Positions 49,544 through 63,929 of a stretch of 64,000 bases of DNA are shown here, in pieces. The stretch is taken from the NCBI GenBank assembly GCA_026387665.1, contig JAPLLG010000012.1, positions 1 to 64,000 on the forward strand. The letters run 5' to 3'. Under the pieces are notes generated by a model, which saw only the letters and a program-made list of their open reading frames with translations, had not been told where the DNA came from and made no database searches. The stretch is from Nitrospirota bacterium. Lineage in GTDB: Bacteria; Nitrospirota; Nitrospiria; Nitrospirales; Nitrospiraceae. Position 1 is the first letter of the stretch. Each line of letters starts with the position of its first letter. Both the position numbers and the translations under genes were made by a program.

Positions 49544-51052
49544 ATGGGCCAATACAAGAATCGATCGATGGGCAATCACAACGCCATGCAACAGGATTTT
49601 CAACGCCGTCTCAGGCCGATTCCCCCACAGGGGATGGGCCTGTCGGTCGACGTCTATTCCCCCGATCTGTTCGAACTGATGACGCAGCTCAAGGCGCGAG
49701 GCCTCAGGCCGAACTATCTTGAAGCCTTTAAGGCGACGACGACCGCTCTGACCGCGGTTCGACAGGCGCTGCCAGATCTGGCGCTGGCCTATCACGGAGA
49801 AGGCCTTTGGATCACCCAGCCGGACGTGCAAGGGTCGCCGTTCTTCCAGCAGGACGTCGACGAGATGGTCATGCAGCTTAATTGTATACAGAGTCTCTGG
49901 CTGAATCATGAATGTGCGATGAAGCAGATGGCCGGCTACTCGTTCGGCACCTATGTGCCGCCGTTGTATACGCCGCTGAGCGCCGAAGTGGTGGCGGATA
50001 ATATCGCCACGGTGCAGCAGGCGATGGATCGGCAGGGTGCCCGCGCGGACGGAACCGCGCCGCTCTTTCTTTTGGAGTTGCCGCCGCTCACCTATTTTTC
50101 AGCCGGCAGGATCACGATTCCTCATTTTTTCAGGCTGGTGGCGGATCTCGTGCCCTGCGGTCTCGTCTTGGACATCGGGCACCTCTGGACGGTCTATCGC
50201 TATACAACGGCCTGCCGACGGATGTCCCTTGAGCAATTCGTCAGGGAGTTTCTCGATGAGTTTCCTCTGGAGCGGGTGGTTGAAATTCATGTGGCCGGCT
50301 TGGCCTGTCATGAATCGGCCGGTGAGTCGGAGTTGAGAGCGGAGCCTCCAGCCTGGCTGGATGCCCATGCAGCCTCGATTCCAGCGGTCCTCTTCATGAT
50401 GCTCGAACAGGTCCTGGCCCATCCGAACCTCGTGAGCCTGAGGGCTGTGGCGTTGGAGGTGGACACCAAGCCGATCGAGACGATTGTGGAGGAATATGCA
50501 GAGGCGGTCCGGCGTTTCGACCCTGTCGTTCAGCGGACGATGGCCAGAGGGTTGGGCGCTGAACAGATGGATCGGGCGTTGCCGTCCTGTTCAACCCAAG
50601 AGCCGGTCAGTCAATCTGCTCGGCAGCAGTTGCGTGACGACTATGGTCTCTATGCGCAAATTATTTCCGGGCAAGTTCCTGTGACAGGACCCGACTGGCA
50701 GGAAACGGCGGAAGATCAAAGAGGACTTACGTCCTACAGCACGACCTATTTGCCCTACGAGATCCTTCATTGGGGCGGCGATCTGAGCGAGATGTTTCCG
50801 CAGACCTGCAGGCTGTTAGCGGCGCGAGGCGTCGATCTGGCCGAGTTTGTATCCTTCTGGTTTCGCGCGCCCCGTCCCCTCACCGAGTCCTACGATTTCT
50901 TTCTGCTCAAGATCGAACGGTTCATCGAGTTTGTGGCGGAGTTCACGCCGGAGGCGCTGGCCTGCGTCGAAGAGGAAAGTGCTGTGCTGAGGCAGGCCTA
51001 TGCGGAGGCGAATGAAGTGGTGGGGCCTGTGATGGAGATCGGACAAGCCTGA
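49544..51052 (+). CDS. DUF692/MNIO-family protein with C-terminal extension
   Basis: A 502-aa protein. Residues ~30-310 fit the DUF692 TIM barrel of multinuclear non-heme iron oxidases (MbnB/TglH type). Metal-ligand candidates are His84 (AYHGEGLW), His122-Glu123 (LNHEC), Glu178 (LLELPP), Asp210 and His213 (LDIGHL), Glu247 and His249 (EIHVAG), Asp273-x-His275 (LDAHA), Glu305. Known relatives modify Cys or Asn in ribosomal peptides. Residues ~330-502 are an extra helical domain I do not recognise. No precursor-like peptide gene is adjacent. It overlaps dus by 1 nt (TGATG). Confidence 0.8.
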   Translation: MGQYKNRSMGNHNAMQQDFQRRLRPIPPQGMGLSVDVYSPDLFELMTQLKARGLRPNYLEAFKATTTALTAVRQALPDLALAYHGEGLWITQPDVQGSPFFQQDVDEMVMQLNCIQSLWLNHECAMKQMAGYSFGTYVPPLYTPLSAEVVADNIATVQQAMDRQGARADGTAPLFLLELPPLTYFSAGRITIPHFFRLVADLVPCGLVLDIGHLWTVYRYTTACRRMSLEQFVREFLDEFPLERVVEIHVAGLACHESAGESELRAEPPAWLDAHAASIPAVLFMMLEQVLAHPNLVSLRAVALEVDTKPIETIVEEYAEAVRRFDPVVQRTMARGLGAEQMDRALPSCSTQEPVSQSARQQLRDDYGLYAQIISGQVPVTGPDWQETAEDQRGLTSYSTTYLPYEILHWGGDLSEMFPQTCRLLAARGVDLAEFVSFWFRAPRPLTESYDFFLLKIERFIEFVAEFTPEALACVEEESAVLRQAYAEANEVVGPVMEIGQA

Positions 51053-53764: not shown

Positions 53765-53862
53765 CTGGTAGGTTTGTCTGTCGCATTTTGCAGCAGGATG
53801 ATGGGCTTTCATCGTATCCATAGCTTATTTCTGGATTGTAGTGATTGAGGGAGGATTGTGGC

Positions 53863-55236
53863 ATGACCGAAGAATGGGGCGCGATTCTCGTTGTGGACGA
53901 TGATGCGGAAATGCGAGAGCTGGTCCATGATGTGCTCAAGGATCGTGGGCATCAGATCACGACGGCGGGTAGCGGCCAGGAGGCCCTCACATTATTGGGG
54001 GGGGCAGACTATGCGGTCGTGCTGACCGATCTACGGATGAAAGGGATGCTTGGGACGGAGTTGCTGACGGAGATCCGGCGTCTCTATCCAGATATCGGGG
54101 TTGTGCTCATGACGGCCTTCGGAACAGTGGACACGGCGGTGGAGGCCATGAAGCGGGGCGCCAGCGATTATTTGACCAAGCCGGTGAAGAACGACGAGTT
54201 GGTGCGGGTCGTCGAGCGGGTGATCCGAGAAGCCGGATTACGGCGAGAAGTGAATCGGCTTAGACGGGAAGTGCATAAGGAATATAGTTTTCATCACATC
54301 ATCGGCAAGAGCAAGCCGATGCAGGAGGTGTTCGATCTGATCCGGCGCGTCGCCGACAGCCCCACGAATCTGTTGATCACCGGCGAGAGCGGCACAGGCA
54401 AGGAATTAGTGGCGAAGGCCATCCATTATAATAGCGACCGGAAGGATGCGCCCTTTATCCCTGTCAACTGTGCCGCCATTCCAGAGCAACTGCTCGAAAG
54501 CGAGCTGTTCGGCCATATGAGAGGGTCGTTCACCGATGCGAAGATGGACAAGCGGGGCCTTTTCGAAGAGGCGCAGAAGGGCACGTTGTTTCTGGACGAG
54601 ATCAGTGAGCTGCCGCTGATGCTGCAGGCTAAGATCTTGCGCGCGATTCAGGAGAAAGAGATTCGCCGTGTGGGCGCAAATAAGCCGATCGCGGTTGATG
54701 TGCGCATCATTGCGGCGACGAATCTCCATCTGACGGAGGAGGTGAAGGCGAAGCGTTTTCGGGAGGACCTGTACTACCGGCTCAATGTGATCGAGCTGCG
54801 CTTGCCTCCCTTGCGCGAGCGCCGCGAAGATATTCCTTTGCTCGTGGATGCGTTCATGAAGAAGTGCGCCGAGGTTCGCGGGAAACAGATTCAGGGGGTG
54901 AGCGAGTCGGCCTTGGCGATGTTGGTGGATTATGCCTGGCCGGGCAATGTGCGCGAATTGGAAAATGTGATCGAACGGGCCGTCACGCTCACCAGGAGCG
55001 AAAAAATCGTTCCTGGCGATCTCCCTGCGGCGATCCAGGGAGCCAGGGGCGATCGGCGCATCCTCGACGATGCGGCGGAACGGACCCTGCCGCTGGACGA
55101 AGTGGAAAAGGAATATATCCTCAAGATCCTCGAAAAGACCGGCGGCAATAAGTATCAGGCGGCTCAGATACTGGGGATCGACCGCAAAACGCTCTATCGG
55201 AAATTGGGCGAGATCGAGGGGAAGACGCCAGCGTGA
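53863..55236 (+). CDS. NtrC-type sigma-54-dependent response regulator
   Basis: A 457-aa activator. REC domain (residues 6-120; acidic VVDDDAE, phospho-acceptor Asp56 in LTDLRM), AAA+ domain (~140-375; Walker A GESGTGKE, Walker B TLFLDEIS, sigma-54 loop reading GSFTDA instead of GAFTGA), Fis-type HTH at the C-terminus (GGNKYQAAQILGIDRKTLYRKLGEI). ATG 53863 follows GGGAGG. The cognate PAS kinase gene overlaps its end by 4 nt. Confidence 0.93.
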   Translation: MTEEWGAILVVDDDAEMRELVHDVLKDRGHQITTAGSGQEALTLLGGADYAVVLTDLRMKGMLGTELLTEIRRLYPDIGVVLMTAFGTVDTAVEAMKRGASDYLTKPVKNDELVRVVERVIREAGLRREVNRLRREVHKEYSFHHIIGKSKPMQEVFDLIRRVADSPTNLLITGESGTGKELVAKAIHYNSDRKDAPFIPVNCAAIPEQLLESELFGHMRGSFTDAKMDKRGLFEEAQKGTLFLDEISELPLMLQAKILRAIQEKEIRRVGANKPIAVDVRIIAATNLHLTEEVKAKRFREDLYYRLNVIELRLPPLRERREDIPLLVDAFMKKCAEVRGKQIQGVSESALAMLVDYAWPGNVRELENVIERAVTLTRSEKIVPGDLPAAIQGARGDRRILDDAAERTLPLDEVEKEYILKILEKTGGNKYQAAQILGIDRKTLYRKLGEIEGKTPA

Positions 55237-56568: not shown

Positions 56569-56970
56569 ATGAATGTGATGGTGGAAAGGAAGCCAGTGGT
56601 GTTACTCATCGCTGAAGATGATCAGGAAATGCGGAGCCTCCTCTGTGATGAACTCTGGGATCTGGGGGTGTCGATCCGGGAAGCCGCCGATGGGGACGAG
56701 GCGCTTCGATCGGTGCTTGATGCCCGCCCGACGCTGATTCTCACGGATCTTCGTATGCCGGCTGGCGGCTTGGATTATATTTCCAGGCTTCGGACCTTTG
56801 CTCCCGGCGTGCCGATTGTATTGCTCACGTCATTTGGAGATTCGAAAACGAGAGCCGATGCCTTGGCGATCGGCGTGGAGGCCTACTTCGATAAGCCGGT
56901 GCGCCTGAGCGAGCTCAAAGGGGCCGTGCGGCGTCTCCTAGGCCCGGCATTGGATGGAAAAATCGACTGA
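56569..56970 (+). CDS. Single-domain response regulator
   Basis: A 133-aa REC domain with acidic AEDDQE, phospho-acceptor Asp60 in LILTDLRMPAGG, Thr/Ser in VLLTSF and Lys in YFDKPV. No output domain. Start taken at ATG 56569 after AAGGGGGCA; a GTG at 56533 and a further ATG at 56578 are alternatives. It sits between the kinase and the second activator and may feed either. The preceding 229 bp (56340-56568) hold nothing I can identify. Confidence 0.85.
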   Translation: MNVMVERKPVVLLIAEDDQEMRSLLCDELWDLGVSIREAADGDEALRSVLDARPTLILTDLRMPAGGLDYISRLRTFAPGVPIVLLTSFGDSKTRADALAIGVEAYFDKPVRLSELKGAVRRLLGPALDGKID

Positions 56971-57014
56971 ATTTCTGTATCGTACAACATCGTTAGTATA
57001 TTGCGAGGTATGAG

Positions 57015-58400
57015 ATGGCCGGATCTCAAAAGCCCCATTCGGTAGTTCCTCCCTTTGCAGATCCCGTTCTTGCCGCTCGACTGGAAGCCATCAAGCAATT
57101 AGCCGGTGGGTTTTCCGAGCGAGTGGCGGTGGTGGATCGAAATTTCAATGTGGTGTATGCGAATGAATCTGCCTGGCTGGAGGAAGCCGCTCCGTCGTCT
57201 GATCATTCGGCCAAGTGCTATGAAGCCTTTGCTCACCGGGAAGATCCCTGTGGCGCCTGCCCTGCGACGAACCTGTTCGAATCGCCCGATGTCCGGTCCG
57301 TGGCCTGTTCTTCCGGAGGGGATGGTGTGGCCTGTGGCATGCATCAGGCCTTTCCGCTTGTCTCGAGCAGCGGAGAGGTCGAGTCTGTGTTGGTGCGGTT
57401 CAAGGCGCCGTTGAATCCTGCGAGTGCTGCCGGGGGCGATGCTTCGGCTGTGCGGGATGACGTGAGGCTCGGTGAGCTGATCGGTTCGAGCAAGCCGATG
57501 CGGGAGCTCCTCGACATGATCCGGCTGGTGGCCGACAGCAGCGCGACTGTGTTGATTCAAGGGGAGAGCGGCACCGGGAAGGAACTGGTCGCCAAGACGA
57601 TTCACCGCACCAGCTATCGACGGGATAAGCCCTTCGTCGTGGTCGATTGCGGTTCGTTGCCGGAAACATTGTTGGAAAGCGAGCTGTTCGGACATGTGAA
57701 GGGGTCCTTCACGGGCGCCCACGCTTCGAAGCGAGGGCTCTTTGAGGAAGCCGACGGAGGCACGATCTTTCTGGATGAGATCGCGGACACAACGGCGACG
57801 TTTCAAGCCAAGTTGCTGCGGGTGCTGCAAGAGGGAGAGATCAAACCGGTCGGAGGCAATCAATCGATCAAGATCGATGCGCGGGTGATTTCCGCGACGA
57901 ATAAGGATCTCGTCGAACTCGTCAAGGCCAAGGCCTTTCGCCAGGATTTGTATTATCGGCTCGCCGTGCTCCCGCTCTATCTTCCGGCGCTCCGGGATCG
58001 ACGAGAGGATATTCCTCTCCTGGTACAGCATTTCGTCGAGGTGTCCTGCAAGCGCCATGGGCAGGAAGTCCGTCATGTGCCGCGGGAGATGATGCAGGCC
58101 CTGACCCAGGCCCCCTGGCCCGGCAATGTGCGGGAGTTGCAACATTACCTTGAGCGGGCGGTCGTCACCACGAGCGGGTCCGAGTTGCAGTGCAAGGATC
58201 TCGTGGCGGCGGGACGGGAGCAGGCGGGAGATGATCTCCGCACTGTGGCGCGTGGGGCCGCCCAACAGGCCGAACGCGCAAGAATTCTGCAGGCCCTCCA
58301 GCAGACTGGAGGCAATCGCGCTAAAGCGGCCAAGCTCCTCAAGGTTAGCCGCGCCAGCCTCTATAACAAGCTTCGCACCTACGAATTGGGCGACGTCTAG
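57015..58400 (+). CDS. Sigma-54-dependent activator with N-terminal PAS-like domain
   Basis: A 461-aa protein. Residues ~25-135 are PAS-like with a cysteine cluster (KCYEAFAHREDPCGACPATNLF, plus SVACSS and VACGMH) that might bind a metal or cluster or sense redox. AAA+ domain ~155-385 with GESGTGKE, canonical GSFTGA, TIFLDEIAD. Fis-type HTH ~415-455 (GGNRAKAAKLLKVSRASLYNKL). No receiver domain, so it responds to a ligand rather than phosphorylation. It is the gene immediately upstream of the giant multicopper oxidase. Confidence 0.92.
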   Translation: MAGSQKPHSVVPPFADPVLAARLEAIKQLAGGFSERVAVVDRNFNVVYANESAWLEEAAPSSDHSAKCYEAFAHREDPCGACPATNLFESPDVRSVACSSGGDGVACGMHQAFPLVSSSGEVESVLVRFKAPLNPASAAGGDASAVRDDVRLGELIGSSKPMRELLDMIRLVADSSATVLIQGESGTGKELVAKTIHRTSYRRDKPFVVVDCGSLPETLLESELFGHVKGSFTGAHASKRGLFEEADGGTIFLDEIADTTATFQAKLLRVLQEGEIKPVGGNQSIKIDARVISATNKDLVELVKAKAFRQDLYYRLAVLPLYLPALRDRREDIPLLVQHFVEVSCKRHGQEVRHVPREMMQALTQAPWPGNVRELQHYLERAVVTTSGSELQCKDLVAAGREQAGDDLRTVARGAAQQAERARILQALQQTGGNRAKAAKLLKVSRASLYNKLRTYELGDV

Positions 58401-58426
58401 CAGGCTGTTGAAAAAGTCTGCCAGCA
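58400..58426 (+). repeat. Half-copy of the dispersed repeat at the activator 3' end
   Basis: GCAGGCTGTTGAAAAAGTCTGCCAGC resembles the left arm at 355-380 and starts at the last base of the activator's TAG. The right arm is not found in the following 100 bp. Confidence 0.7.
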
Positions 58427-58584
58427 TCGCTCTCAAGAGCCATAAAAAGTAAAACGTAGGGATATCGAGTGATTCCCCCTCTGAATCGTTGTACCTCTTA
58501 CATCTCACGTTTGACGTTCCCTGCCCGCGTTTCTGTTCTTGGGCTAGCTTCTGCCCGTTTCCGCCCCATCATATGGCTGCAATT

Positions 58585-58600
58585 GTCTAATGGATTGGAC
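58585..58600. promoter_or_regulatory. Candidate upstream activator site (inverted repeat)
   Basis: GTCTAATGGATTGGAC is a near-perfect 16-bp palindrome (GTCyAAT-N2-ATTrGAC). It lies about 180 bp upstream of the -24/-12 promoter, at a typical distance for NtrC-type activator binding. A half-site TGTCTA recurs near 58650. Confidence 0.5.
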
Positions 58601-58765
58601 AGTGCATCTACTTGAAATGTAGTGGCTTGTCGGTATTCCTGCTTTTGGCTGTCTAGTCTTGTGGAAGTTTGACCGAGATAGGCCTCTTGGCCTCACCGTG
58701 CCATCAATTGCAAATCGCCAGGATTAGAGCGGAATAACGGCTGATTTATGCCAATAGCTTCAAGA

Positions 58766-58780
58766 GGGCATGTAAGTTGC
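58766..58780 (+). promoter_or_regulatory. Candidate sigma-54 (-24/-12) promoter of the giant multicopper oxidase
   Basis: GGGCATG-TAAG-TTGC aligns with the sigma-54 consensus TGGCACG-N4-TTGC. The invariant GG (58767-58768) and GC (58779-58780) have the exact 10-nt spacing and only two core mismatches occur. Predicted transcription start is near 58791, giving a leader of about 200 nt. Two sigma-54 activator genes lie directly upstream. Confidence 0.7.
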
Positions 58781-58949
58781 GAATACGTAGCGCTGCTGGT
58801 GGGGGTCTGGGTAATTTTGGACCGGCCTCCGAATGACCCTCTCCTCCGCAAAGAGGAACCCCCCACCAGCGCTTAACGAAGGCCATGAGACGTGATGCGG
58901 GCTTTGTCGGACAGGCAACGAAATACGAGCGACGAGTAGTTTCAACCAA

Positions 58950-58967
58950 CCCGCCTGGTGAGGCGGG
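58950..58967 (+). other. Leader hairpin before the multicopper oxidase ribosome-binding site
   Basis: CCCGCCT-GGTG-AGGCGGG is a perfect 7-bp GC stem ending 8 nt before GGGGAGG, the ribosome-binding site. It could stabilise the message or affect initiation. Confidence 0.5.
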
Positions 58968-58988
58968 CATAACAGGGGAGGCCGTACT

Positions 58989-61900
58989 ATGAGGGGTGAT
59001 GTGTTTCAACCAACGCGCAGGCGGCGCCGTACGGGGTTGGCGTTGATGCTGCAGAGCGTCTTGCTGGTCGGCAGTCTGGTGGCAACACCAGGGCTGTTTG
59101 CGGCGGGATCGGGAGAGGGGGCCCATCAGGGGCATGCCACTCCGGTTGCGATGCCGGGCTGGACCCAGCAGTTGAAAGGCCAGACGGTGGTGGAAAACGC
59201 CATCGAAGGCCGTTCCGGCAATGCAGAGAAGATGGAGATGCAGCATCATCGCCTGATGGAGAAGCTCGAGCAGCAGGCGCAGAAAGACGCCAAGGCTCAG
59301 CAGACGTCCGGTGCATTCAACGAAATGTCGATGATGCACCAGTATATGGGACAGGACGGCAGCAGCTTCCTGCTCATGTCGGACGGCACCAAGGGCGAGC
59401 CGGTGATGGCCTCGGGCGGGAAGTGTCCCGCCGGTGTGCCGGTCAAGAAGTATGACGTGTCGATGATCAATGTCGAGATCACGTTGAACCGGTGGCTCGA
59501 TTTCTATCCTGGGTACATGTACGCGCTGACTCAGGACCTCGACAAGGTCCGCAGCGAGGAGGCCAAGAACAAGGCCTCTCGCGACAAGGATGGTTTCGAT
59601 CCGGGAGCCGTGTCGACCGGGTTGCAGGGCGACATGATTCAGCCTCTGGTGCTCCGTGCCAACCAGGGCGACTGCGTGAAGATGACGCTCCGCAATCAGA
59701 TGGAGGGCGAGGACGGCAGCTTGTTCATCAGCGCCTCCAGCATGATTGTGAGCGCGACCGGCAAGCCGGCCCTGACGACGAACCCCGAGTCCATCGTGGC
59801 TCCGGGCAAGGCGCAGGAGTTCGAGTGGTACATCCATCCGCAGATGCAGGAGGGTGTGCGGCAGTTCCATTCCTACAGCCATGACCGTGAGTTGACCGTG
59901 TTGGGCCTCTTCGGCGCGTTCATCGTGGAGCCGAAGGGATCGAGCTACGTCGATGCGTTGGGGACCGGCCCTGACAAGCAGGTCACGAGCGGCTGGCAGG
60001 TGAACATCGATAACGGGTCCGGACCGGACTTCCGCGAATTCGTGCTCTTCTATCACGAAATCGGCGACGAAGCCTTCCGTCCCTTGAACAAGAAGGGCGA
60101 CTTCCTGCCCCAGCGCGATCCGCTGACGGATGCCTATCGTCCGGGTGGCCGTGCGATCAACTATCGCAGCGAGCCCTTCGGCATCGATCAGATGCATTTG
60201 CAGCATGAGTATTTCGGCTTCGAAGACGAGTCGATGGCCTACAGCGCCTATACGTTCGGCGATACGCCGACCACGATTGCCCGCGGTTATCTGGGTGATC
60301 CGGTCAAGTGGCGGCTGGTCCATGGTGGATCGGAAGTGTTTCACTCCCACCATCCGCATAGCGGAACGATTCGTTGGCAGCGCAGCCCGCGCGCCGATCA
60401 GGACGAACATTGGTACAAGGGCCAGGATGGTCCGGTGAAGTATCCGGTCGTCCGGACCAAGTCTGATCGCGTGGACGTGGAAGTCATCGGGCCCTCAGAA
60501 GCCTTGGACCTCGAACCGGAATGCGGCGGCGGTGGCTGTCAGCATTTGGCGGGCGAGTTCCTCTATCACTGCCATGTTGCGCACCACTATGTGGCGGGCA
60601 TGTGGGGCTACGGACGTTTCTACAATACGTTGCAAGTCGGTTCGGCCCACACAGACACGATGCCGGACTTGGCAGAATTGCCGGACCGCAAGGGCCGGAT
60701 GAAGATGGGCGTGTCGTCCGACAAGTTGATCGGGACGACCGTCGATTGGTTCGGGAAGGTCTTCAAGATTGTCGACAAGAGCCAGAAGACCAACTGGAAG
60801 TCCGATCCTGTCATTGTGAACATCAAGGATTGGGTCGAGATATTTGTGCCGGCCGCTGGTCAGCCAGGCCACACGAACGATGAGAAGGCCCAGATCATGT
60901 CCTACGATTCCACCGTATGGGATTGGAAGTGGGATGGCAACATTGCCCGTGGCGAGCGCGAAAGCACCGCGGCAAATCCGAAGTACCCGGCGGCAGCCAA
61001 GTGGGATGACAGCACCAGACCGGCCATCCTGTTTGATCCGACCACGGCCAAGATGTCCTGGCCGTTGTTCAAGCCGCACTTCGGCAAGCGGGTGCCCTTC
61101 TCCGCGAACCACAGTGGTGCGCCATGGCTGGAGCCGATTCACCAGGACGCAAACGGTGAGCGGACTTCCGAGCCGGCGCAGCCGGGCGAGCAGGGCCGTT
61201 GGAGCCTCTGCCCCGACAATGCCAATCGCAAGCATTACAACATCCACTTCGTCCGTATGCCGATCACCCTGGCCAAGAAGCAGGGGAAAGAGCCGGCGAT
61301 GGTCGACAAGGACGGTCTGATCTACGTACTCCATGAAGAGGAGACCCTGACCAGAGCGAACGACGACCTCAAGCTCCCCGCCGTCATCCGCGCCAACGTG
61401 TATGACTGTGTGGACTTGCTGTTGACGAGCGAGTGGGACGACGACGATTACACGAATTTCCAGTCGTCCAAGATCAACATCCATCCCCACTTCTTCCAGT
61501 TCGACACGGGGAATTCGGATGGTGTCATTTCCGGGTTCGAGTATGAAATGTCGGTCCGGCCGTTCACCATGTGGGGCAAGAAGACCAAGCATGGGTTGCC
61601 GGCTCCGATGGTCGGGAAGTTGACGGGTGCCGTGAAGGCGGGCACTGCGTCCATCAATATTCAGATGGCGCCTGGCGCCACGCCGTTCCATGTGAACACC
61701 GAAGTGATGGTGGGCATGGATTGTTTGGAAAAGGGTAACGATGCCGCGGCGTCATTGCCGCGGGATAAGAGCTGTCAGGAAGTCGCCCGGATCAAAGAGA
61801 TCAAGGGCGCGACCGTGACGTTCTTCAAGCCGCTGAAGCAGAACCATCCGGCGGGCGATCTCGTGTCGCCGGAGTTCGTCCGCTACCGGTGGTGGGTGGA

Positions 61901-63929
61901 CGTCGATATGGGGACCGTGTTCTGGCACGACCACGCGTTCGGCGCGACGACCTGGCCGCATGGCGGGTTCGGCGTGACGATCGTGGAGCCGTTCGGGTCC
62001 ACCTATCACGATCCGAAGAACGGCAAGCTGGTGTATAGCGGCCCGATCGCCGATATTCACAGCAACGAGCCGATCGGAGCCGGTGTCAGCGGCAGCTTCC
62101 GTGAGTTGATGGTGTCGATCCATGACACTGTTCCGCACACGGTGAACACCATCGAGGCGGGCAATCCTCCGGGACAGCCCATCGAAGTGGCGTTGGAAGC
62201 AGGTAAGACCATTTCGTTCCAGATGCCGGATAAGATTCTGGCCTCTCCGAACAAGTATATCAACGGCGGTACGCATACGACCGGCAGCGGTTTCAACTTC
62301 CGCGCGGCCCCGTTTGCGCAACGTTTGTCCAACAATCCGGATACGTCCAAGCTGTTCAGCAGCGCGATCCATGGCGATCCCGGTACGCCGCTCTTGCGGG
62401 CGTACACAGGGGACACCATGGTGTTCCGTTTGTTGCACCAGCTCATGAACGAATCCCACGTCTGGACGATCTCCGGCCATACGTTCCTCACGGAGCGCTA
62501 TGCGGCGGATGCCAATCGGAAGAACTCGATTCACGTCGGGATCGCCGAGCGGTATGACCTCGTGACCAAGGCGGGCGGATTCCAGGGTATGCCGGGCGAC
62601 TACATTCACTTCAACGGCAGAACGTCACACTTTGCCGAAGGTGGATGGGGCATCGTGCGCGTACTCGACAAGGAAACGGCGGATCTGAAGCCGCTCCCGA
62701 AGGGAACCAATCCTCTCGGGATTCCCGCGACGCCAAGCTCGGTCTGTCCGGCCGATGCTCCGGTGAAGAACTTCAACGTCGTGTCCTTGGACCGTCCGTT
62801 GAAGCTCCATCCGAAGGCGCCGGATACGATCGAAGTCGATTTCGAGCGCAAGATTGAAATGACGGTGCCGGAAGGCAAGATCTTCGCGCTGGAAGAAGAA
62901 GCGACCACCGTGTCGGGCAATGTGATGCCGAGTCCGCTCACGTTGCGCGTCAACCTTGGTGACTGCATCAAGGTGAATCTGAAGAACAAGATGAAGGCAA
63001 GCCGGGCGTCATTCTTTGCGCCGGGTCTGGCCTTCGATCCGAAAGACAGCCAGGGCTTGAACGTCGGCAACAATGCCGGCGATCAGACGGTGGCCCCGGG
63101 CGAGAGCCGCACCTATACCTACTACGCACATCCGGCGAACAAGGAAACGACGTCGCTGGTGTGGGACGGTGGCAACATCGTCGTGAATCCGCGCAACGGA
63201 TTGTACGGCGCCATCGTGGTCGGTCCGCGCGGGTCGCAGTATCGCGATCCGGTGACCGGTGCGGATCTGTCGCAGAAGAATGCCTGGAGAGCTGACGTCA
63301 TTGTCGACGCCAGCTTGACGGAGAATGTCGGCAAGCGGAATTACCGTGACGTGGCCCTCTTCTTCCAAGACGAGGACAACATCATCGGCACCGCGTTCAT
63401 GCCTTATGTGCAAAACGTGGCCGGGTTGACGTCGGTCAACTACCGCGCGGAACCCTATAAGTTCCGTGAGGAGCAAGGCTGCTCGCTGGGCAAGATTTTC
63501 CAGCCCTGCGTGGTGGACAAGCCGGAAGATCCGGTGACGCCTCTGATCGAGGCGCATGCCGGTGACGCGGTCCGTATCCATGTGATCGGCGCGAACAGCG
63601 AACAGAACGGGATGTTTGCGGTCGAAGGCCATGAATGGCCGATCGAACCCTACATGCCTGGCGCCGACCAGATCAGCGTCGTGGAGTACGCCGGGTCCGA
63701 GATCCTCGATGTCTTCATCCGTGGCGGTGCGGGCGGCCCGTATCGTCAGGTGGGAGACTTCGTGTGGTCCAATGCGCGGCTGCCCTACACGCAGTCGGGA
63801 CAATGGGGCTACCTCCGTGTGTTGCCAGCCGGTGACTCACGGATCCAACCGCTGGGCGCGCACGGAGCTGGCGCCAAGCATGCGGATGTGCAGCCCGAGC
63901 CTCGCGCTATTCCGACTGCGATGAAGTAG
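58989..63929 (+). CDS. Giant exported multicopper oxidase (MofA/MnxG-like)
   Basis: A 1646-aa precursor with signal peptide ~1-39 (TGLALMLQSVLLVGSLVATPGLFAAG) and several cupredoxin domains. Copper-ligand clusters: HSHHPH (452-457), type-1 site HCH-x3-H-x4-M (His527-Cys528-His529, His533, Met538), HPHFFQF (832-), HDH (980-982) with WPH (991), further His pairs near 295-298. Size and the scattered HxH pattern fit giant oxidases such as Leptothrix MofA (~1660 aa) and MnxG, implicated in Mn(II) oxidation; substrate unproven. The N-terminus is Met/His-rich. GGGGAGG precedes ATG. Confidence 0.88.
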   Translation: MRGDVFQPTRRRRRTGLALMLQSVLLVGSLVATPGLFAAGSGEGAHQGHATPVAMPGWTQQLKGQTVVENAIEGRSGNAEKMEMQHHRLMEKLEQQAQKDAKAQQTSGAFNEMSMMHQYMGQDGSSFLLMSDGTKGEPVMASGGKCPAGVPVKKYDVSMINVEITLNRWLDFYPGYMYALTQDLDKVRSEEAKNKASRDKDGFDPGAVSTGLQGDMIQPLVLRANQGDCVKMTLRNQMEGEDGSLFISASSMIVSATGKPALTTNPESIVAPGKAQEFEWYIHPQMQEGVRQFHSYSHDRELTVLGLFGAFIVEPKGSSYVDALGTGPDKQVTSGWQVNIDNGSGPDFREFVLFYHEIGDEAFRPLNKKGDFLPQRDPLTDAYRPGGRAINYRSEPFGIDQMHLQHEYFGFEDESMAYSAYTFGDTPTTIARGYLGDPVKWRLVHGGSEVFHSHHPHSGTIRWQRSPRADQDEHWYKGQDGPVKYPVVRTKSDRVDVEVIGPSEALDLEPECGGGGCQHLAGEFLYHCHVAHHYVAGMWGYGRFYNTLQVGSAHTDTMPDLAELPDRKGRMKMGVSSDKLIGTTVDWFGKVFKIVDKSQKTNWKSDPVIVNIKDWVEIFVPAAGQPGHTNDEKAQIMSYDSTVWDWKWDGNIARGERESTAANPKYPAAAKWDDSTRPAILFDPTTAKMSWPLFKPHFGKRVPFSANHSGAPWLEPIHQDANGERTSEPAQPGEQGRWSLCPDNANRKHYNIHFVRMPITLAKKQGKEPAMVDKDGLIYVLHEEETLTRANDDLKLPAVIRANVYDCVDLLLTSEWDDDDYTNFQSSKINIHPHFFQFDTGNSDGVISGFEYEMSVRPFTMWGKKTKHGLPAPMVGKLTGAVKAGTASINIQMAPGATPFHVNTEVMVGMDCLEKGNDAAASLPRDKSCQEVARIKEIKGATVTFFKPLKQNHPAGDLVSPEFVRYRWWVDVDMGTVFWHDHAFGATTWPHGGFGVTIVEPFGSTYHDPKNGKLVYSGPIADIHSNEPIGAGVSGSFRELMVSIHDTVPHTVNTIEAGNPPGQPIEVALEAGKTISFQMPDKILASPNKYINGGTHTTGSGFNFRAAPFAQRLSNNPDTSKLFSSAIHGDPGTPLLRAYTGDTMVFRLLHQLMNESHVWTISGHTFLTERYAADANRKNSIHVGIAERYDLVTKAGGFQGMPGDYIHFNGRTSHFAEGGWGIVRVLDKETADLKPLPKGTNPLGIPATPSSVCPADAPVKNFNVVSLDRPLKLHPKAPDTIEVDFERKIEMTVPEGKIFALEEEATTVSGNVMPSPLTLRVNLGDCIKVNLKNKMKASRASFFAPGLAFDPKDSQGLNVGNNAGDQTVAPGESRTYTYYAHPANKETTSLVWDGGNIVVNPRNGLYGAIVVGPRGSQYRDPVTGADLSQKNAWRADVIVDASLTENVGKRNYRDVALFFQDEDNIIGTAFMPYVQNVAGLTSVNYRAEPYKFREEQGCSLGKIFQPCVVDKPEDPVTPLIEAHAGDAVRIHVIGANSEQNGMFAVEGHEWPIEPYMPGADQISVVEYAGSEILDVFIRGGAGGPYRQVGDFVWSNARLPYTQSGQWGYLRVLPAGDSRIQPLGAHGAGAKHADVQPEPRAIPTAMK

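Follow-up and report, generated by a model that had tools for sequence, protein, structure and literature searches.

A predicted sigma-54 promoter and a conserved structured leader RNA precede a giant MnxG-like oxidase gene in Nitrospira and relatives

We analyzed the region preceding a giant multicopper oxidase gene in a 64-kb window, by which we mean the whole stretch of 64,000 nucleotides from a Nitrospirota contig (JAPLLG010000012.1). Judging by sequence comparison, this region very probably holds a functional, bEBP-driven sigma-54 promoter at positions 58766-58780, with a conserved structured leader RNA behind it. The promoter is of an ordinary kind in a new place. The main interest lies in the leader RNA, which lacks an Rfam match and is tied to one oxidase family. 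The oxidase (58989-63929, forward strand; 1646 aa) is MnxG-like by homology. It is homologous to Bacillus MnxG (PDB 9bxa, E = 3e-83), contains Cu-oxidase Pfam domains and an HCHVAHH motif at residue 527, and matches NCBIfam NF041487 partially (111 bits), not reaching the equivalog cut-off of 3100 bits. Elsewhere in the window, positions 49544-51052 encode a protein that weakly resembles the MNIO-type RiPP maturases (BufB-like; E = 4e-11) and falls far short of the cut-off.

The -24/-12 element reads GGGCATGTAAGTTGC at 58766-58780 of the forward strand (GGGCATG-TAAG-TTGC). Its GG (58767-58768), N10 spacer and GC (58779-58780) are all exact, and 9 of the 12 defined positions agree with TGGCACG-N4-TTGCW. 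The preliminary description of this DNA, which reported a near-consensus site here, was exact in both letters and coordinates. It also placed the site in a gene-free gap of 590 bp between an activator and the oxidase, and called it the best GG-N10-GC match of that region; the gap between the stop codon of the activator (58400) and the ATG of the oxidase (58989) measures 588 bp, and the site is the top scorer within it. That statistic would not have sufficed by itself. The element might have arisen by chance, with the oxidase transcribed from another promoter, and 14% of dinucleotide shuffles of the 588-bp region do reach an equally good score (P(max score >= 9) = 0.136), while 24 sites of score 9 or better are present in the window. 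In genome-level pattern scans with the reversed pattern as a control, GGCAYRNNNNTTGC was found 19 times versus 13 for the control. Judgment by score alone was dropped as not decisive (P = 0.14), and the significance of the site derives instead from the comparison of orthologs.

Oxidase orthologs (77-99% identity) were collected from Nitrospira and its relatives, and their upstream regions were compared. When 64 distinct upstream regions were aligned on the site, the pattern GG-C-A-(C/T)-(A/G)-N4-T-T-G-C proved to be near-invariant amid randomised flanks: the core columns carry up to ~2 bits each, versus 0.02-0.33 bits for nearly all columns of the upstream flanks (~0.05 being typical; n = 64). 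In nearly all orthologs, the start codon follows the best GG-N10-GC match at a distance of 160-440 bp. Relative to the loop of the leader RNA described below, GG-N10-GC is kept 50-54 nt upstream in 64 of the 66 core-bearing ortholog leaders; in the remaining two (L052 and L057) AG replaces GG. The spacing between promoter and RNA is fixed among orthologs, and that between RNA and ATG varies. No comparable -24/-12 site was found in the upstream regions of paralogs at 65-68% identity, and no sigma-70-like site in 56900-59100 of the window. The rpoN gene was found in all 31 genomes tested.

Upstream of the element there is a dyad, TGTCYA-N6-TRGACA, that looks like an enhancer. In the window it reads TGTCTAATGGATTGGACA (58584-58601, forward strand; labeled UAS1) and precedes the -24 element by about 180 bp, the distance being 174-195 bp in most orthologs. 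The dyad followed at 150-180 nt by GGCAYRN4TTGC gave 33 matches in 101 genomes, versus 0 for the reversed control. To our knowledge, this enhancer sequence is not known from any other activator. A degenerate copy (TGTCTAGTCTTGTGGAAG, 58650-58667, forward strand), 66 bp after UAS1, is a candidate second UAS; half sites resembling it, at an identical +66 spacing, can be seen among the pattern matches listed. A second enhancer-pattern match in the source genome (C3:216582) was rejected, as no sigma-54 site stands behind it.

The search with the dyad alone also reached other transcription units having a -24/-12 site 180-182 bp downstream, which indicates that the layout is the architecture of a small regulon and not a peculiarity of one gene. 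In relatives (L207-L210), the gene behind an enhancer and sigma-54 site arranged in this way codes either for a small lipoprotein-like protein, with a desaturase-like gene next in line, or for another secreted protein. One of these units, L207, is located just downstream of a giant-oxidase copy, and two proteins tested from these units had no match in Pfam. At a further locus (L239, genome G025), the enhancer and sigma-54 site in front of a lipoprotein-like gene have a decayed-looking leader RNA behind them, hinting that this unit was duplicated from an oxidase gene.

The gene preceding the promoter (57015-58400, forward strand) encodes a sigma-54 activator (bEBP), as indicated by Pfam domains, synteny, and the conservation of its cysteines and contact loop. 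Its AAA+ domain matches PF00158 (Sigma54_activat, 6.5e-70) and its Fis-type HTH matches PF02954 (7e-12). The sigma-54 contact loop is GSFTGA, the receiver domain is absent, and the N-terminal domain has five conserved cysteines (68, 79, 82, 98 and 107). Cysteines 68, 79, 82 and 107 are kept in 29 of 29 bEBP orthologs and Cys 98 in 28 of 29, and the G(A/S)FTGA loop is intact in all 29. With a strict search threshold, no close orthologue turned up outside the family. The bEBP gene is syntenic with the oxidase in most orthologs and located elsewhere in the genome in some; in several clades the promoter is kept with no bEBP adjoining. Most likely, judging from its position, the adjacent bEBP activates this promoter, and its Cys-rich sensor suggests a metal or redox signal. 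Upstream of the cluster, the window also codes for an NtrC-type response regulator (53845-55236) that has G(A/S)FTDA in place of GAFTGA, a replacement kept in six orthologs. This regulator may act other than through sigma-54 in the usual way.

Overall, the site combines consensus letters, conservation at a fixed position, RpoN in the genome, and an enhancer together with a bEBP bearing G(A/S)FTGA. We judge the promoter to be real because of the ortholog footprint, the enhancer, the absence of the site in paralogs, and the 33 versus 0 combined matches. Chance resemblance is very improbable in view of the near-invariance of the site in 64 orthologs against randomised flanks, the constant enhancer distance, the paralogs without the site, and the lack of a sigma-70-like site in the region searched. 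The -24/-12 site, the enhancer and the spacing between them are strongly supported computationally. Transcription is predicted to start at 58791-58792 of the forward strand, as sigma-54 geometry (~12 nt past the -12 GC) indicates and the constant spacing between the -24 element and the RNA supports. The promoter reading of the preliminary description was therefore right, given the footprint, the enhancer dyad at a fixed distance, rpoN in 31 of 31 genomes and the neighbouring bEBP; what it overlooked was the enhancer and the structured RNA at the predicted +1.

This RNA, about 75 nt long and composed of three helices, lies at the expected start of the transcript. In the window its 5' domain spans 58795-58870 (forward strand) and consists of a closing helix (P1), a helix with an invariant apical loop GGACCGGCCUCCG (P2) and a hairpin (P3). 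The window's loop reads GGACCGGCCTCCGAA (58819-58833, forward strand), of which GGACCGGCCTCCG is invariant and AA nearly invariant in alignment A1. Among orthologs the block takes the form GCUGGUGAAGGU-nn-GGGU-GA-UUNGGACCGGCCUCCGAAUGACCC-nn-hairpin-ACCUUCACCAGC. Because the loop follows the -24 element at a steady 50-54 nt, the RNA is taken to start at the expected +1. Double-sided (compensatory) changes occur at 15 of 24 pairs, and 88.8% of cells are paired across 42 distinct sequences. The observed covariation values were reached by none of 500 shuffles, and slid versions of the structure were only 36-57% paired. RNAalifold returned identical helices plus a 3-bp loop closing, GGA/UCC, that never varies. 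For the window, the 5' domain has an MFE of -43.4 kcal/mol (z = -4.8). The fold of the whole leader was uninformative (z = -0.7), the stable part being the 5' domain. The leader thus has a covarying secondary structure of the kind seen in riboswitches. No relevant Rfam family was found for it, either at the gathering threshold or at E <= 10, and this strongly conserved leader RNA is unlisted so far. A 34-codon open reading frame starting at 58885, with a stop that overlaps the oxidase ATG, was attributed to chance; the equivalent ATG is absent in close relatives.

Since the conserved block lies close to the promoter, it could instead be a DNA element such as a regulator site. Compensatory changes in three helices, unmatched in 500 shuffles, argue against this, as does the occurrence of the element without a sigma-54 site before oxidase copies of ~50% identity; we regard a DNA element as highly improbable and treat the block as RNA. 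Its presence in that divergent group with no sigma-54 site further means that RNA and promoter are separable. The divergent copies carry variant leader RNAs (UCUGGUGAAGGAG... with the loop GGAC(C/U)GGCCUCCU; L183-L190, L193, L199 and L200), and their oxidases show ~50% identity (65% for L199) and no -24/-12 site. On the oxidase tree of the main groups (n = 101, the ~50% identical group left out), RNA and promoter need three changes each.

A covariance model detected the RNA in 115 of 396 Nitrospirota genomes, the window copy scoring 86 bits. The matches are confined to the order Nitrospirales, except for a single weak one in another family of the phylum (L182, E = 0.008) that was judged to be chance. 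Perfect matches to the loop core not located before oxidases (L144-L147) were also ascribed to chance, as they lack both the structure and a sigma-54 site. In nearly every structured match checked, a giant multicopper oxidase gene lies downstream. As for the exceptions, the contigs of L142 and L149 are too short to tell, and in L140 and L137 an oxidase remnant or no oxidase follows the RNA.

What the RNA might do is suggested by its loop. In the window the loop sequence CGGCCUCC is perfectly complementary to the Shine-Dalgarno sequence GGAGGCCG (58977-58984, forward strand) just before the ATG, and the same holds in most orthologs. This Shine-Dalgarno sequence is present in RNA-less paralogs, too. 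Of 67 genes with the RNA, 47 have the extended form GGAGG-CCG, versus 17 of 31 without it (nearly all paralogs) and 11% of other genes having a GGAGG site. Because the extended form is common in RNA-less paralogs, masking of the Shine-Dalgarno sequence by the loop in cis is not specific, and we did not accept it as a proven mechanism. Leaders also contain further loop-complementary sites beyond the Shine-Dalgarno sequence, up to 12 nt long (UCGGAGGCCGGU). An internal site of 8-12 nt is found in many relatives; the window retains a 5-nt relic of it, AGGCC (58880-58884, forward strand). With the Shine-Dalgarno sequence excluded, 45% of leaders contain a perfect loop complement of at least 10 nt; the figure is 0.2% for shuffled sequences and 1.5% for stretches of equal length taken upstream of the promoter. 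This enrichment suggests switch-like base pairing. Just before the ribosome-binding site, the window has an additional hairpin, P4 (CCCGCCTGGTGAGGCGGG, 58950-58967, forward strand). Most orthologs have a hairpin at this position, with differing stems (e.g. TCCGCC/GGCGGA or CCCGCG/CGCGGG).

Most likely, the RNA would provide a second layer of control over the MnxG-like oxidase, acting after initiation (on translation) and either riboswitch-like or protein-dependent. If the leader were a true riboswitch, a small ligand or metal ion would stabilise the fold, and mutually exclusive pairings of the loop would thereby free or mask the ribosome-binding site; Mn or Cu would be natural candidates for this gene. 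The invariant unpaired loop inside covarying helices, the alternative loop-complementary sites and the restriction to one gene family fit such a role. Nevertheless, riboswitches often serve several genes and this RNA is carried by one gene family only; moreover, the complementarity to the Shine-Dalgarno sequence recurs in RNA-less paralogs. We therefore hold the riboswitch reading only tentatively. The leader might otherwise be a protein- or sRNA-binding RNA or a stabiliser of the mRNA 5' end, with a loop that may act in trans on the ribosome-binding site of paralogs (AAGGAGGCCGGU). The position of the RNA at the predicted 5' end is in keeping with this, and RNA-less paralogs, including that of the source genome, contain a 10-nt stretch complementary to the loop, GGAGGCCGGU. 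However, the 12-nt sites extend past the Shine-Dalgarno sequence on the side that fits a loop acting in cis, and we rate this alternative somewhat short of an even chance. Before the start of the source genome's own RNA-less paralog (L203, contig C8), a second giant oxidase, AAGGAGGCCGGU(U/C)CAU occurs twice in tandem, and both copies contain a 10-nt complement of the first oxidase's leader loop.

Under the preferred reading of promoter plus translational control, the following course of events can be proposed. The bEBP encoded upstream, or its orthologue from elsewhere in some genomes, would bind one or more TGTCYA-N6-TRGACA dyads ~180 bp upstream and remodel the sigma-54 polymerase, so that transcription starts near 58791. 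The mRNA would begin at once with the three-helix RNA, whose invariant loop could pair with complementary sites down the ~200-nt leader, the ribosome-binding site included, and such alternative pairing would control oxidase translation. A bolder version, which we consider rather unlikely, is a new class of riboswitch, restricted to Nitrospirales and sensing metal or redox state, at the very 5' end of a sigma-54 transcript, in which the one invariant loop would toggle between the internal site and the ribosome-binding site and promoter and RNA would jointly gate the MnxG-like oxidase.

Nitrospira are major nitrite- and complete-ammonia-oxidisers. In the open-licence literature, we found no work on Nitrospira that treats this promoter or leader, and none giving the function of the giant MnxG-like oxidases of Nitrospira. 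Control in two layers, by a sigma-54 enhancer and a conserved leader RNA, suggests tight regulation by a specific signal, for which the Cys-rich activator and the leader RNA offer two direct handles. Should a metal or metabolite prove to bind the RNA, this would establish a new class of riboswitch and reveal the signal to which the oxidase responds.

Several known systems share parts of this arrangement. With classical bEBP/sigma-54 promoters (NtrC, NifA and PrpR type) it shares GG-N10-GC, a palindromic UAS 100-200 bp upstream, and an AAA+ activator with G(A/S)FTGA and a Fis-type HTH; it differs in its own enhancer sequence and in the invariant coupling to one structured RNA. Like translational riboswitches and leader-RNA regulators, the leader has a conserved fold, an invariant loop and several complementary sites, one of which overlaps the Shine-Dalgarno sequence, yet it matches no relevant Rfam family and serves a single gene family. 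The oxidase is homologous to Bacillus MnxG but considerably longer (1646 versus 1227 aa), and Mn oxidation by the Nitrospira protein is putative. The Mn-oxidase promoters of Pseudomonas are a close functional parallel. According to excerpts of two papers, mnxG and mcoA have predicted IHF-sigma-54 promoters and are Mn-responsive/Mn-requiring (PMC11930936), and Pseudomonas MS-1 loses Mn oxidation when a transposon disrupts its rpoN (PMC11409713). There, too, a sigma-54 promoter stands before an MnxG-type oxidase, and the activator MnxR is required (PMC11409713, PMC11930936). These excerpts describe IHF and the MnxS1/S2/R two-component system and mention no leader RNA. In contrast to that system as the excerpts present it, the neighbouring bEBP of Nitrospira lacks a receiver domain, and the promoter is followed by a conserved structured leader.
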